A DNA stretch of 29,091 bases from a virus: IMG/VR virus record IMGVR_UViG_3300025889_000682, positions 1 through 29,091 of that record; one strand, written 5' to 3'. Positions 3,795 to 11,029 of the stretch are shown here, in pieces (position 1 is the stretch's first letter; each line of letters starts with the position of its first letter). Both the position numbers and the translations under genes were made by a program. The notes under the pieces were generated by a model, which worked only from the letters and a program-made list of their open reading frames with translations, did no database searches and was not told the DNA's origin.

Positions 3795-4465
3795 AACTAC
3801 CCCCATGGTCATTTAGTGGCATCAAAGCATTCGACCAATGCCCCAAGAAGTATTACCACTTAAAGGTGGTCAAGGATTACAAAGAGCAAGTCACTGATGC
3901 ACTGACCTACGGATCGGAGTTTCACAAAGCCGCTGAACTTTACATCAAGGAGGGCACCCCACTACCGCCCCAGTTTAGTTATTCCAAAGGTGCGCTCGAC
4001 AACCTGAATCAGTTACCGGGCGAGAAGCTGTGTGAATACGAGATGGGCTTGACAGAAGATCTTGAGCCTTGTGGGTTCAAGGCCGAGAATGTCTGGTGGC
4101 GTGGGATTGCTGACCTGATCATCCTAGACCGGGAAAAGGGGGAGGCACGGGTACTAGACTACAAGACCGGAAAGTCGGCAAAATACGCAGATACCGGGCA
4201 ATTGGAATTAATGGCACTGGCGATATTCAAGCACTTTCCTGAGGTACGGAAGGTCAAGGCCGGACTTCTGTTTGTGATCGCTAAGCAATTTATTAAGGAT
4301 AGTTACACGGTGGACTCAGCGCCAACGCTTTGGCAAAAGTGGCTACGAGACTACGACCGTTTACGGTTTGCGTATCAGACAAATGTTTGGAACCCGAGAC
4401 CCTCAGGATTGTGCAAGAAGCATTGCGTCGTGACTGAGTGTCCCCACAACGGAGGATATATGTGA
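3791..4465 (+). CDS. PD-(D/E)XK nuclease, Cas4/RecB-like (224 aa)
   Basis: The motifs of the Cas4/RecB nuclease fold appear in order: an N-terminal SGIKAFDQCPKKYY with C17, then EFH (H45), GIADLI (D108), and VLDYKTGK giving D123-Y-K125, followed by a GQLELMALAIF helix carrying the QxxxY/L-type residues. Three Cys close the protein (C208, C212, C217). Together with C17 they match the one-plus-three layout that binds a 4Fe-4S cluster in Cas4 and AddB, so an iron-sulphur nuclease is a fair inference. The likely job is DNA-end processing, probably as an exonuclease in phage recombination or replication. It lies between the polymerase and the SNF2 helicase, and related phages often keep these three genes together. 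Confidence 0.9.
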   Translation: MKLPPWSFSGIKAFDQCPKKYYHLKVVKDYKEQVTDALTYGSEFHKAAELYIKEGTPLPPQFSYSKGALDNLNQLPGEKLCEYEMGLTEDLEPCGFKAENVWWRGIADLIILDREKGEARVLDYKTGKSAKYADTGQLELMALAIFKHFPEVRKVKAGLLFVIAKQFIKDSYTVDSAPTLWQKWLRDYDRLRFAYQTNVWNPRPSGLCKKHCVVTECPHNGGYM

Positions 4466-6393: not shown

Positions 6394-6807
6394 ATGACTG
6401 AAGCACTAAAAGCCAAGCCGGAGGTTTTACCGGAGAAGTTGGTCAAGGTCTACATAAAGATGCGTGCCAAGCGTGCCGAACTTTCAGCGGCATTTGACGA
6501 GCAAGACAACAAGATCAAGGCTCAGATGGAAAAGGTCAAAGCCGCCCTGCTGGAGTACTGCAAGGAAAACAGCGTCGAGAGCGTGCGTACGACTGAGGGC
6601 TTGTTCTACCGCACCGTTAAGACCAATTACTGGACAAGTGATTGGGAGTCCATGGGCAAATTTATTCTTGAGCATCAAGCCCCTGAGTTATTAGAGAAGC
6701 GCATTCATCAGGGCAACATGCGCCAGTTCTTAGAGGAACACCCCGATGTGCTACCCCCGGGGCTAAATGTGGATAGCGAATACGGCATCACTGTAAGGAG
6801 AAAGTAA
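6394..6807 (+). CDS. Coiled-coil phage protein, possibly Gam/Gp157-like (137 aa)
   Basis: The start follows AAGGAGATTAGTT, a strong ribosome site. Residues from about 14 to 58 form a long charged helix (VKVYIKMRAKRAELSAAF onward) that looks like a coiled coil and ends LLEYCKENSVE. A short beta region (TTEGLFYRTVKTNYW) follows, then a helical end with LLEKRIHQGNM and a final LPPGLNVDSEYGITVRR. A long helix followed by YCxEN, a hairpin and a short helical end resembles the layout of Mu Gam and siphovirus Gp157 proteins, which bind DNA ends or accompany recombination genes. Sequence identity with those is not evident, so this is a layout-based suggestion. Conserved phage protein likely; function open. 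Confidence 0.75.
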   Translation: MTEALKAKPEVLPEKLVKVYIKMRAKRAELSAAFDEQDNKIKAQMEKVKAALLEYCKENSVESVRTTEGLFYRTVKTNYWTSDWESMGKFILEHQAPELLEKRIHQGNMRQFLEEHPDVLPPGLNVDSEYGITVRRK

Positions 6808-7076
6808 TGACAGACCTAGCCAAGTTTGTACCGATTGAATCGGTTGCAAAGCATTTCATGGTTTCAATCTCAACGGCCCGAGCGTGGGTGCGGCAGGGGC
6901 ATATCCCGCCTGACACCTACCTCAAGATTGGTAACACGTACCGTTTTGATTTGCAGAAAGTGGTTGATGCTTTAACCAACCGCCCACGACTGAAACCGAT
7001 AGTAGTTCCCGAGAAAGAGGGCAAGGAGCCACAACAACTTGAACTCGACTTTGGCAATCCCGACGAAGACATTTAA
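6807..7076 (+). CDS. Excisionase-like helix-turn-helix DNA-binding protein (89 aa)
   Basis: Start and preceding stop overlap as TAATG, with GGAG upstream. Residues 8-30 (VPIESVAKHFMVSISTARAWVRQG) give a MerR/excisionase-type helix-turn-helix, followed by the expected wing and KIGNTYRFDLQKVVDAL, in which the Arg of the typical RF/W wing is present. The last 20 residues are acidic and Glu/Asp-rich. Proteins of this kind are small DNA-binding regulators or recombination directionality factors. No integrase is in the window, and the gene is inside the replication operon, so a transcription regulator or origin-binding accessory role is more likely than excision. The acidic tail could contact a partner protein. 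Confidence 0.8.
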   Translation: MTDLAKFVPIESVAKHFMVSISTARAWVRQGHIPPDTYLKIGNTYRFDLQKVVDALTNRPRLKPIVVPEKEGKEPQQLELDFGNPDEDI

Positions 7077-7087
7077 AGGAGAAACTT

Positions 7088-7993
7088 ATGTCTGACATGA
7101 CCTTGTTTAAACCCAACAAAGCCGCCCTCGCTCTTTTAGGAGACGTGGAAGACAACCTGACGGATCGCCTTGCCGGGTCCACTGGTGGATCTATTAACCG
7201 ACGCATCAGCATCAAGGGTGGCGTCTTTCGTGAAATCATCAACGGTAAAGAAGTTCGTGTAAACGAAGAGCGTGCGATGAACGTTGTGCTGGTGAATGCC
7301 GCACCCCTTAGCCGCATGTACTACGCTGGGGTGTACAACGAGGGAGAAGTTACCAAGCCAATGTGCTGGTCAAGCGACACACAAACGCCTGACCCCAAGG
7401 TGCCTCAGGATCAGAGGCAATCTGCCCGATGCATGGACTGCAAGCAGAACATTCGTGGCTCTGCCGCATCCGGTGAGGGTAGGGCTTGTAAGTTCCAGCA
7501 ACGTGTTGCTGTGATGCTCGACGGTCAACTCGACAACGAAGAGATCTATCAGATTACGTTGCCATCAACGTCTATCTTTGGTGACGGTGAGAAGGGTAAG
7601 TTACCTCTCCAAGCGTACGGTCGCTTCTTAAAAGCGCACAACACGCACGCTATCTCGGTTATTACTGAGATGAGGTTCGACACTTCCAGCCCCACACCGA
7701 AGCTGGTGTTCAAGGGTGTTCGCCCCTTGGAAGAAGATGAGTTAAAAGCAGTTATTGCGATGAAGGATCATCCCGATACCATCAAGGCGATTACACTGAA
7801 CGTCGCTCAGATGGATGGGGTTATCCCTAGTGGGGAAACAAAAGCCCTGACAGTTAAGAAGCAAGAGACTGCACCAGTAGCCACGGAAGAAAACGAAGTG
7901 GAAGAGGAACCCAAGAAAGTTACAAAGAAAGCCACTCCTGTAGTCGAAGAGAAGGCCGAACTTTCTGATATTGTGGGCGACTGGGACGATTAG
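7088..7993 (+). CDS. Probable phage single-stranded DNA-binding protein (301 aa)
   Basis: No SSB domain is obvious by motif, but several traits agree. There is a 250-residue mixed body. Four Cys (C93, C115, C118, C134) read as a zinc site, with CMDC as the core pair. A flexible Glu/Lys/Thr-rich linker follows from about residue 255, and the extreme C-terminus is acidic (DIVGDWDD), the tip by which SSBs recruit replication partners. T4 gp32 likewise combines zinc with an acidic tail, though I claim no sequence match. The operon otherwise has polymerase, nuclease, helicase and primase but no SSB, which supports the call. The ATG has AGGAG eight bases upstream. It could instead be an annealing protein. 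Confidence 0.6.
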   Translation: MSDMTLFKPNKAALALLGDVEDNLTDRLAGSTGGSINRRISIKGGVFREIINGKEVRVNEERAMNVVLVNAAPLSRMYYAGVYNEGEVTKPMCWSSDTQTPDPKVPQDQRQSARCMDCKQNIRGSAASGEGRACKFQQRVAVMLDGQLDNEEIYQITLPSTSIFGDGEKGKLPLQAYGRFLKAHNTHAISVITEMRFDTSSPTPKLVFKGVRPLEEDELKAVIAMKDHPDTIKAITLNVAQMDGVIPSGETKALTVKKQETAPVATEENEVEEEPKKVTKKATPVVEEKAELSDIVGDWDD

Positions 7994-8161
7994 TCTCGGA
8001 GGGGAAAGCGTTAAGAGATTCAGTTGTTTCAACGCTACTGATCGGGTGAGTACCCTCCACCCACTTCACTGGTTAACCACGACTAGGCTGACGAGCCGAA
8101 AAGGGCGCAAGCCGCACGGTGCCCCTGTCGTGGGTTCTTTTACGTGCGAAGAAGGCGGCAA
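7994..8161 (+). ncRNA. Candidate structured regulatory RNA before the primase gene
   Basis: This 168-base gap is unusual in an operon of overlapping genes and holds nested complementary segments. Hairpin one pairs AGCGTT (8007-8012) with AACGCT (8031-8036). Hairpin two pairs GGGT (8044-8047) with ACCC (8052-8055). A longer helix pairs AACCACGAC (8075-8083) with GTCGTGGGTT (8127-8136) over nine pairs and one bulge. It closes a three-way junction with GGCT/AGCC (8086-8097), a GAAAA joint, and GGGCGC/GTGCCC (8103-8124, one G-U). Inside the last arm, GGC-GCAA-GCC could form a GNRA-capped alternative. TTCTTTT follows the closing helix, like a terminator or attenuator. Position and style recall phage P4 CI and P1/P7 C4 RNAs; that link is a hypothesis. 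Confidence 0.5.
8070..8079. promoter_or_regulatory. Perfect 10-base palindrome TGGTTAACCA
   Basis: A fully symmetric decamer in the intergenic region upstream of the primase. It could be an operator half-pair for a dimeric regulator, for example the nearby HTH protein, or part of the RNA fold, whose closing helix uses its right half. No second copy was noticed. Confidence 0.3.
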
Positions 8162-11029
8162 ATGAAAACAGAAGATTTTTTAAGGTCGGCACTGGGAGAT
8201 GAGGGCTACTACTGTGTAGTCGGATTGAAGCCGAAAGAAGATCGGCGACTGCAAAAGTTTTACGATTCGATTGATGATGTCTTATCTGTAGCGCACAACC
8301 TTGATAACGAGGGATTCGATGCCTACTTTGCCTTGGCGACTTTTGAGAATGGTGAGTCACGCAAGCGAGACAACGTCAAACAACTGCGGTCGTTCTTCTT
8401 GGATCTCGACTGCGGTCTGTCGAAAGAGTACCCAAACCAGTCCGAGGCGTTGGTAGCCCTACGAGGTTTCTGCAAAGATCTCTCCCTACCAAAACCCACG
8501 ATCATTAACTCAGGTAATGGCATACATGTTTACTGGTTCTTAGAAGAAGCGATGAGCCGTGACGAGTGGTTACCTGTTGCCGAGCGACTAAAGCAACTAT
8601 GCAATCAGCATGATCTAAAGGCTGACCCTGCGGTTACATCAGATTCGGCACGGATACTGCGGATACCGGGTACGCATAATCACAAGGCCGACGAGCCTAA
8701 AAAAGTAGTCGTGATTGGAGAACCGGGCAACAAGATTACATTTGCTGAGTTCAAAGCTACGCTTGGTGAGGGCTTCATTGAAGCACCCAAGAAGTATGTG
8801 CCGATGGAGAAAGATGCCATCATGGAGGCACTCTCAGGTAGCTACACCAGCAACTTCAAAGATATTCTTATCCAGACACAAGCTGGGGTTGGGTGCGCAC
8901 AGATCGAATACGCTGTCACCAACCGAGCAACATTGGACGAGAAGTTATGGAGAGCGACACTTTCTGTTGCCGCATTCTGTGAAGATCGTGACAAAGCGAT
9001 CCACAATATTTCAAAGGGGCACCCCGAATACACATTCGATGCCACTGAAGCTAAAGCGAGGCTGATTAAAGGCCCATACAAGTGCGCAACATTTGATAGC
9101 TACCGACCGGGCATTTGCCCCAAGTGTCCACATTGGGGTAAGTTTGGTTCCCCGATACGGATTGGTAAGAAGGTCATGGAAGCTACCGAAGACGACAACG
9201 TAGTGGTTGAGAAGTTTGCAGATATTCCAACCATGACCCCACAGCAATTCACCATACCGCAATACCCGACCCCCTACTTGCGGGGTAGTAATGGAGGCGT
9301 GTTCAAACGAGTTACCACGCCAGACGAAGTAAAAGAAGTGCCTGTTTATCACAATGACTTGTATGTCATTCGTCGCATCCGAGACCCCGAGATTGGGGAG
9401 AGTGCCGTTTTACGTTTGCACCTACCACGAGATGGCGTGCGTGAATTTACGATGCCGCTTACAGCAGTGGGGTCCAAAGAAGAATTTAGAAAGTACTTGG
9501 CATCGAACGGCGTTGCCGTGATCAAAATGGATGAACTTATGGCATACATTAGTAGGTGGATAAATGATCTTCAAATGAAGGTTGCCGCTGATGCCGCAAG
9601 GCTTCAGTTTGGTTGGACAAACGACGATCCCGAAGAACCGGACGGCCTGTCTTCATTTGTGGTTGGCAACATGGAAGTATTTAAAGATCGCATCGAGGTT
9701 AACTCCCCGTCATCAAAAACAGTCGATCTCTTCCCAGCGTTCCAGCCCAAGGGCACCCTTGAGAAGTGGAAGCAAACGATGGAGTTTTGGAATCGTCCCG
9801 GTGTAGAGATGCACCAGTACATGTTTGGCATTGCTTTCGGTGCCCCGCTGGTCCCTTTCTTTGGGAATATAAATGGTGTGATCTTTCACACGCACAGCAA
9901 AGGTAGTGGGTTCGGCAAAACAACAGCGATGTTGGCGGGTGCTTCTGTGTGGGGCGACCCCGATGTTCTGATGCTCAAAGAGCGAGACACCTACAACTCA
10001 AAGATGAACCGTGCCGAGGTCTACAAAAACTTGCCTGTTTACGTAGACGAGATGACCAACACCGCACCGAAAGATTTGAGCGACTACGCCTATCAAGTGC
10101 CCAGCGGTCAACAGCGTAATCGGCTAGGTGCAAAAGGTAATACCGAAAGGCACAGAGGTAAGCCTTGGAAAACTCTCTTTGCCTCGACGGGTAACACAAG
10201 CATGTTAGAGCGTATAGCCCTTTACAAGGCACTACCCAAGGCAGAAGCCCAACGTATCTTAGAGCGTGAAGCAATCTCGGTCGAGTTCAACAGCAAGGCC
10301 GAAACCGATGAATTTAGTCGAAACATCATGGCATCTTACGGTCATGCTGGGGTGCCATATCTTCAGTACATCATGGCCCACAAAGAAGAGGTTTGGAAGC
10401 TGGTGCTTTCAACTCAAGCCAAGATCGACAAAGCCGCAGGGCTTACAAAAGAAAATAGATTTTGGTCGGTCCATGCCGCCGCAACCATCACTGGGTTGTT
10501 GCTGGCTAAACGCATGGGGCTTATCAACTGGCAGATTGCACCGATTGTCCAGTGGGCCATCGAGTCAATGAAGGGCGCCAAAGAAGACATCGACAACATG
10601 GGTGGAGATGTTGAGAGTTTACTCACTGACTACTGGGCGGAGAATTACAACAACGTCCTTCGTATCAAGAGTACTGATACGGTCAGAGGTAGTAGCGGTG
10701 GGCTTGATCACTTGATCACACCGGATGCAACACCCCGGTTGGCCCTTGTGGCTCGGTACGAATACGACGTTAAAAAGCTTTATCTGTTACCCAAACCCCT
10801 CAAAGAATGGTGCGGTAAAAACCAAATTAACTATGGTGGGTTCGTTGCGGGGCTTAAATCGGGACGTACAGCCGCACGATACGTACCAAAACGACTGGGT
10901 TCAGGCACTCACATCAACTTGCCGCCACGCTCTGTGTGGGAGATAGACTGTTCGGGATTCTTGACCGATGAGATCGAAGAAACGATTGCTGGTAAAGCCG
11001 CAGTCAACGAAAAACCGGATTCGGTTTGA
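8162..11029 (+). CDS. AEP primase fused to DUF927-type helicase (955 aa)
   Basis: A primase-helicase in one chain. The N-terminal archaeo-eukaryotic primase domain shows FFLDLDCG (D81, D83), INSGNGIHVYWF (S117 to H122) and DSARILRIPG (161-170). A Cys/His cluster (C308, C319, C322, H324; ICPKCPHWGK) is a likely zinc site. From about residue 400 a DUF927-like ATPase follows, with Walker A GSGFGKTT (K586) and Walker B VYVDEMTN (D629, E630). This order suggests primer synthesis plus DNA unwinding at the fork. ATG at 8162 (AAGG upstream) is preferred over GTG at 8144, which has no ribosome site. It follows the structured gap, so its expression may be controlled there. Its last 62 bases overlap the next gene. 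Confidence 0.92.
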   Translation: MKTEDFLRSALGDEGYYCVVGLKPKEDRRLQKFYDSIDDVLSVAHNLDNEGFDAYFALATFENGESRKRDNVKQLRSFFLDLDCGLSKEYPNQSEALVALRGFCKDLSLPKPTIINSGNGIHVYWFLEEAMSRDEWLPVAERLKQLCNQHDLKADPAVTSDSARILRIPGTHNHKADEPKKVVVIGEPGNKITFAEFKATLGEGFIEAPKKYVPMEKDAIMEALSGSYTSNFKDILIQTQAGVGCAQIEYAVTNRATLDEKLWRATLSVAAFCEDRDKAIHNISKGHPEYTFDATEAKARLIKGPYKCATFDSYRPGICPKCPHWGKFGSPIRIGKKVMEATEDDNVVVEKFADIPTMTPQQFTIPQYPTPYLRGSNGGVFKRVTTPDEVKEVPVYHNDLYVIRRIRDPEIGESAVLRLHLPRDGVREFTMPLTAVGSKEEFRKYLASNGVAVIKMDELMAYISRWINDLQMKVAADAARLQFGWTNDDPEEPDGLSSFVVGNMEVFKDRIEVNSPSSKTVDLFPAFQPKGTLEKWKQTMEFWNRPGVEMHQYMFGIAFGAPLVPFFGNINGVIFHTHSKGSGFGKTTAMLAGASVWGDPDVLMLKERDTYNSKMNRAEVYKNLPVYVDEMTNTAPKDLSDYAYQVPSGQQRNRLGAKGNTERHRGKPWKTLFASTGNTSMLERIALYKALPKAEAQRILEREAISVEFNSKAETDEFSRNIMASYGHAGVPYLQYIMAHKEEVWKLVLSTQAKIDKAAGLTKENRFWSVHAAATITGLLLAKRMGLINWQIAPIVQWAIESMKGAKEDIDNMGGDVESLLTDYWAENYNNVLRIKSTDTVRGSSGGLDHLITPDATPRLALVARYEYDVKKLYLLPKPLKEWCGKNQINYGGFVAGLKSGRTAARYVPKRLGSGTHINLPPRSVWEIDCSGFLTDEIEETIAGKAAVNEKPDSV

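Follow-up and report, generated by a model that had tools for sequence, protein, structure and literature searches.

An int-alpA RNA before a phage primase-helicase gene: covariation of its loop with two downstream sites suggests antisense control of translation

The locus

The window analysed here is a stretch of 29,091 nucleotides of viral DNA (IMG/VR record IMGVR_UViG_3300025889_000682). Positions 7994 to 8161 form a gap whose limits, read from the sequence, are exact: the stop codon of the upstream gene ends at 7993 and the ATG of the following gene is at 8162. The first gene codes for a protein of 301 amino acids (PHROG 27714), the second for a DUF927 primase-helicase of 955 amino acids. 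An original prediction, made from the letters alone, had proposed that all 168 bases of this gap make a structured RNA. The features retained after the present analysis are as follows.

8076..8148, + strand: int-alpA RNA (Rfam RF02996), full match including a 14-nt 3' tail (cmscan)
8076..8083, + strand: helix P1, 5' arm, pairing with 8127-8134 (sequence; covarying in 65 members)
8086..8097, + strand: P2 hairpin GGCT-GACG-AGCC (GACG loop in 55 of 65 members)
8098..8102, + strand: conserved joint GAAAA (present in 51 of 65 members)
8103..8124, + strand: P3 hairpin GGGCGC...GTGCCC (stem covaries)
8109..8118, + strand: P3 loop AAGCCGCACG, putative antisense loop (own versus permuted complementarity, 65 members)
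8127..8134, + strand: helix P1, 3' arm (covariation)
8135..8141, + strand: terminator-like U-tract TTCTTTT behind helix P1 (usual in the primase-linked group but not across int-alpA as a whole)
8143..8148, + strand: target site T1, CGTGCG (complementary to the P3 loop; covaries)
8150..8155, + strand: Shine-Dalgarno-like AGAAGG (sequence only)
8155..8159, + strand: target site T2, GCGGC, between the Shine-Dalgarno and the start codon (complementary to the P3 loop)
8162..11029, + strand: candidate regulated gene, DUF927 primase-helicase, 955 aa (Pfam PF06048, PHROG primase families)

The C of a CTA joint (8083-8085) pairs with G8127, and the dinucleotide CT at 8125-8126 lies between P3 and the 3' arm of P1. 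At the outer end of P1, A8076 may alternatively pair with T8135 if G8134 is bulged. This is the single bulge of the helix 8075-8083/8127-8136 proposed originally, and that helix is present in the sequence, as are the enclosed pairings GGCT/AGCC and GGGCGC/GTGCCC, the GAAAA joint and the TTCTTTT that follows the closing helix. Within the P3 loop, CGCACG (8113-8118) is complementary to T1, while GCCGC (8111-8115) is complementary to T2.

Taken alone, the junction (8076-8140) has a more stable fold than 197 of 200 shuffles (z -2.4), with the overall three-way shape and a P3 drawn slightly differently; the whole 168-nt gap is no more stable than its shuffles (z 0.08), and its folding was dropped as evidence. 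No sigma-70-like promoter was found in 7600-8300, and the idea of a separate small RNA with a sigma-70 promoter of its own was set aside accordingly. An extended primase start at GTG 8144 was also rejected, being out of frame in the relative L002.

Membership of the int-alpA family

The RF02996 match scores 47.5 bits against a gathering cut-off of 35.8 (E 4.6e-7), covers the model at full length (1-71) and coincides with the three-way junction that had been foreseen. It is the sole Rfam match above cut-off in the window, where those to mir-1497, astro_FSE and isrF are weak and far below theirs. By the family's own covariance test, the window RNA belongs to int-alpA. It had been suggested that it might be a relative of the C4 antisense RNAs, or else a new class. 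By sequence it is not the former: while RF02996 matches, the C4 model RF01695, which does match phages P1 and P4, finds nothing in the window with E relaxed to 5. The latter falls because the family is already catalogued. The int-alpA family was reportedly first described by Weinberg et al. 2017, and Rfam classes it as sRNA. In the literature that we searched, which did not extend to that founding description, int-alpA is named once, as a predicted sRNA in a list, RF02996 is absent and no function was found described.

The int-alpA consensus has the same P1, P2 and P3, the same GACG loop and the same GAAAA joint as the window RNA, and its P3 loop (aaaCCuUu) and 3' tail (AgGG) are complementary too. 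The surroundings differ from what is typical. Whereas the family name evokes a site between integrase and alpA genes, a location that membership does not require, the window RNA sits between the gene of the PHROG 27714 protein and a DUF927 primase gene, in a group of phages without detected tyrosine integrase; other members do follow integrase-like C-termini, recognised by eye.

Relatives and covariation of the helices

After a strict structural parse, pattern scans of IMG/VR left 35 distinct copies from phages, and RF02996 was found above cut-off in 50 of 398 sampled Pseudomonadota genomes. From these IMG/VR copies and Pseudomonadota loci, 65 non-redundant RNAs with enough downstream sequence were retained for covariation. 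The variable pairs of P1, P2 and P3 occur there as G-C, C-G, A-U and U-A, and their positions are paired in 63-65 of the 65 members, as against about 27-39 after shuffling, with a weaker outermost pair of P1 (48/65); as the parse demanded stem pairing, the proportion paired is partly selected, while the variety of pair types is not. Covariation thus backs the three-helix structure, and the proposed three-way junction is real and conserved. The closest cases are L002 and L003, whose primases are 69% and 62% identical to that of the window: both have an int-alpA RNA before the same gene, and in both P1, P2 and P3 are intact despite changes in the two arms, so that homologues do carry compensatory changes in P1-P3.

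Unpaired positions are strongly kept as well: CTA in 61, GAAAA in 51, GACG in 55 and CTG in 48 of the 65 members, counts to be taken as upper limits because the search patterns, the parse and the model demand or fix part of this core. Likewise, two viral scans fixed the P3 loop (GCCGC), and the loop of the primase group is partly selected for. No DNA match was found in cultured phages, and none of the examined stretches of Rollin and RHph_TM27A, which have distant primase homologues, contains an int-alpA RNA.

The upstream half of the gap (7994-8075) fared otherwise. In most relatives no more than about 15 nt lie between the upstream stop codon and the RNA; in L003 the distance is only a few bases. 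The two outer helices that had been proposed there are not kept: GGGT/ACCC is lost and AGCGTT/AACGCT weakened in L002, and upstream helices are absent in L003 and most relatives. About half of the supposed 168-base RNA is thereby excluded, and its 3' half, 8076-8148, stands. The competing folds that were to allow switching, GGC-GCAA-GCC and the palindrome TGGTTAACCA, were discarded too, since neither is conserved in L002 or L003, where P3 reads GAGTGCAGGCC and GGGTACATGCC, respectively. The window (8017-8035) and L002 (approximately 3859-3877) share an identical 19-nt block, GATTCAGTTGTTTCAACGC, in front of the RNA; it is absent in L003 and has no promoter match.

Some relatives depart from the common pattern. 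L155 and L141 have int-alpA-like RNAs with GGCC replacing GACG in the P2 loop and without clear target sites, placed behind a gene whose C-terminus resembles a repeat or tail-fibre protein. In a subfamily made of L128, L139, L140, L149 and L159, the P2 loop is TCATG or GCATG and the P3 loop contains TCCTGG; the RNAs of L128 and L139 precede PHROG 5931 genes.

One loop and two target sites

Across the 65 relatives the P3 loop and its two sites vary jointly into unrelated sequences. In L020 the loop GCCTTTTC is complementary to GAAAAGGC and AAAGGC; in L082, ACACCCTG to CAGGGT and AGGGTG; in L090, ATCCTTTCA to TGAAAGG and TGAAAGGAT; in L106, CGCCTTA to TAAGGC and TAAGGCG; in L128, TCCTGG to CCAGGA and CAGGA; and in L084, where the loop has CGTCA, TGACG occurs twice. 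Both partners of the T1 pairing vary even among primase-group members (CGCACG/CGTGCG, CCGCAG/CTGCGG, CCGCGC/GCGCGG). Neither T1 nor T2 played any part in the parse or in the member searches.

Exact complementary runs between a loop and its own downstream sequence average 6.1 nt, against 4.55 with permuted partners (sd 0.14, maximum 5.1 in 5000 permutations), and at least two sites are present in 57 of 60 members where 33.6 are expected (maximum 45 in 200 permutations). Mean duplex energies over the 65 members agree: -10.1 for loop and own T1 against -5.75 permuted (z -12.8), and -9.7 against -7.2 for T2 (z -8.2), with controls at z 0.4 for the P2 hairpin, z -1.7 for the region 50-88 nt downstream and z +3.2, that is weaker than permuted, for the upstream region. 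These z-scores are inflated by the kinship of the members, and the test to trust is that restricted to 23 mutually dissimilar representatives, in which T1 and T2 each reach p about 5e-5, the control standing at p 0.055. To be sure, the loops tend to be anti-Shine-Dalgarno, which gives the T2 signal a generic share that permutation corrects only in part; among non-primase members the +50-88 control shows a weak positive signal (z -2.7). In the primase-linked group alone the T1 signal is moderate (z -3.1), and the value for T2 (z -0.2) is uninformative because GCGGC hardly varies there: T2 is kept in this group and covaries in the wider family. A third target site upstream of the RNA was considered and rejected, complementary runs in that region showing no excess over permuted partners. 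The exceptions, lacking one or both sites, are L155, L141, L118 and two L173 copies.

The geometry is close to constant. T1 starts 7-10 nt after helix P1 in 57 of 63 members, the T1-T2 spacing is 11-14 nt in 46 of 59, and T2 lies at the ribosome-binding site. Of 38 members scored outside the primase group, moreover, 33 can place T2 in the loop of a hairpin of 4 or more pairs (mean 5.0 pairs versus 4.1 with shuffled flanks). In the primase group such a hairpin was sought and discarded, its 21 members doing no better than shuffled flanks (2.6 pairs versus 2.9). This group has instead a U-tract after helix P1, which many members outside it lack, and on this ground the primase-group RNA is a sub-variant of int-alpA.

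Genes behind the RNA

Some two dozen distinct phage sequences have an int-alpA RNA before a DUF927-type primase (DUF927 was verified by Pfam for the window, L005 and L042). Elsewhere the gene after the RNA is a NUMOD4/HNH homing endonuclease (L020), a homing endonuclease with NUMOD3 and AP2 domains (L078), endonuclease VII (L084) or PAPS reductase (L080), and outside the primase group many prophage genes in this place have no Pfam match. Upstream genes in bacterial genomes resemble, by eye, integrase C-termini or RelE/HigA-type genes.

Several elements carry more than one copy. L169 has two int-alpA RNAs (1006-1072 and 3858-3923, minus strand) with identical P3 loops. Two similar homing-endonuclease-like genes follow, one immediately behind each RNA: the duplicated unit is a cassette of RNA and gene. 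L145 likewise has two RNAs, its cassette duplicated with the gene. Three RNAs are found in L173 (2650-2717, 3350-3417 and 5090-5157, minus strand), preceding an integrase, a RelE/HigA-like pair and an unknown gene, all identified by eye; two of these copies have no clear T1 or T2, and may be decayed or trans-acting.

A phage immunity RNA had been suggested for the window. Tyrosine integrases, the type covered by the search, were not found in primase-group records of 61.7 kb (L052), 46.9 kb (L053), 40.9 kb (L064) and 31.2 kb (L012), which are linear and maybe incomplete; the same search was positive in the records of L013 and L020, both from other groups. For this reason a role in lysogenic (prophage) immunity is unlikely in the primase group.

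Likeness to known antisense systems

The C4 RNAs of phages P1 and P7 and the CI RNA of phage P4 have, like int-alpA, a closing helix, two hairpins and an antisense loop in the position of P3. In phage P1 the annotated order is C4 (48343-48419), site a2 (48423-48429), site b2 (48452-48459) and the start of icd (48470), the same as in int-alpA: the RNA, one site directly behind it and another at the ribosome-binding site of the next gene. The loop of the C4-family RNA of P4 is complementary to TTCACAGG at a downstream ribosome-binding site. This C4-type feature, an antisense loop against a downstream ribosome-binding site, is present in int-alpA as judged from complementarity and covariation. 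By contrast, the two families share no sequence match, and their P2 loops and joints are unlike; each of the two C4 targets has a different antisense stretch, where int-alpA would use one loop for both; and C4 and CI also have target sites upstream (a1/b1, seqA), where int-alpA shows no enrichment. Of the original comparison with C4 and P4 CI, the similar build is therefore kept, together with probable control of the downstream replication gene, and the kinship is not. In the leader of phage P4 (L087) an isrK match at 8615-8692 (minus strand) lies upstream of the C4-family RNA, which agrees with the SeqA/IsrK similarity already described (PMC4825925).

In phage T4, hairpins that sequester the ribosome-binding site silence homing endonucleases and late genes on early transcripts (PMC2988022). 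Here too a leader structure in a phage would silence a cistron on long polycistronic transcripts, and homing endonucleases also lie downstream of several int-alpA RNAs; the T4 hairpin, however, sequesters the site directly, whereas in int-alpA the contact would come from a loop in a separate three-way-junction RNA.

Replication-factor production is controlled by loop pairing in the case of the plasmid copy-number antisense RNAs (CopA, RNAI, the IncB/ColIb Inc RNA). These are read from the opposite strand, while int-alpA lies upstream on the same strand.

A proposed mechanism and its rivals

Comparison between members supports helices P1-P3, the covariation of the loop with both T1 and T2, and the location of T2 at the ribosome-binding site. 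On this basis we consider it probable that the int-alpA RNA in the primase-helicase leader is an antisense module masking the ribosome-binding site, and controlling that gene. The RNA (8076-8134) would form in the leader of the primase-helicase cistron, and its P3 loop would pair with T2, overlapping the ribosome-binding site, and keep the primase from being translated. The target is repeated as T1 immediately after the RNA, and this copy would compete for the loop or anchor it. Pairing would repress, with T1 and T2 presumably excluding each other: the ribosome-binding site would be free when the loop is held by T1, and closed when it is held by T2. We infer at least some action on the very mRNA that carries the RNA, because of the near-constant spacing, the closeness to the upstream stop codon and the duplication of cassettes. 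The U-tract of the primase group may in addition end some transcripts behind the RNA, and the free antisense RNA of 60-70 nt so made could act in trans like P4 CI or P1 C4; it is this U-tract and the C4/CI analogy that point to a free RNA, additional or alternative. The switch would likely serve to time the synthesis of replication protein from a long early transcript, or to limit it by feedback.

That the RNA is in essence a small trans-acting antisense RNA, terminated at the U-tract or cut from an early transcript, and repressing other copies of the leader as a diffusible molecule (in replication feedback, for example, or in the exclusion of related phages), appears to us possible but rather unlikely. 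P1 C4 and P4 CI, whose anatomy it shares, are indeed released antisense RNAs (for P4 CI, see PMC4825925). Rfam's typing of int-alpA as sRNA, the U-tract of the primase-linked group and the diversification of loop/target pairs among related phages also fit this reading. Yet many members outside the primase group have no U-tract, the near-constant T1 and T2 spacings would be superfluous for a diffusible RNA, RNA and gene are duplicated together in L169 and L145 as a cis element would be, and the records of the primase group are without tyrosine integrase.

An improbable alternative is a leader sensing a ligand or a protein, which would bind the joints CTA, GACG, GAAAA and CTG and thereby switch the loop between T1 and T2. 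It would account for one loop having two mutually exclusive partners, and for a conservation of these joints that exceeds the evident needs of an antisense scaffold; this conservation is inflated by recruitment through patterns and model, however, and primases, homing endonucleases, endonuclease VII, PAPS reductase and unknown prophage genes share no metabolite theme. A plain intrinsic terminator or attenuator between the upstream and primase genes, with incidental loop complementarity, is very improbable: TTCTTTT does follow helix P1 and one terminator-like site is called nearby, but this call relies on an alternative hairpin and is no more than chance would give (0.8 expected), a U-tract is missing from most of the wider family, and the conserved joints as well as the loop-T1/T2 covariation would be left unexplained.

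Beyond the masking module proposed for the primase leader, the comparison suggests a built-in antisense switch on translation as the mechanism of the family. We give about even chances to the broader proposal that int-alpA RNAs overall are a portable and self-contained translation switch, with one loop, T1 as a decoy and T2 at the ribosome-binding site, all re-specified together, and an independent solution of the C4/CI kind. If so, the same switch would have been placed before replication genes, homing endonucleases and other phage and prophage genes. The two-site rule gives the family a testable mechanism, which predicts the controlled gene for each member, and int-alpA supplies naturally diversified loop/target pairs. 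A C4/CI-like logic would here run on a different scaffold, in phages that look non-integrating, and would therefore not be confined to lysogenic immunity. Two genes upstream of the RNA, the window also codes (6807-7076) for a small protein matching HTH_17 just under cut-off, a helix-turn-helix protein that is a candidate early regulator.
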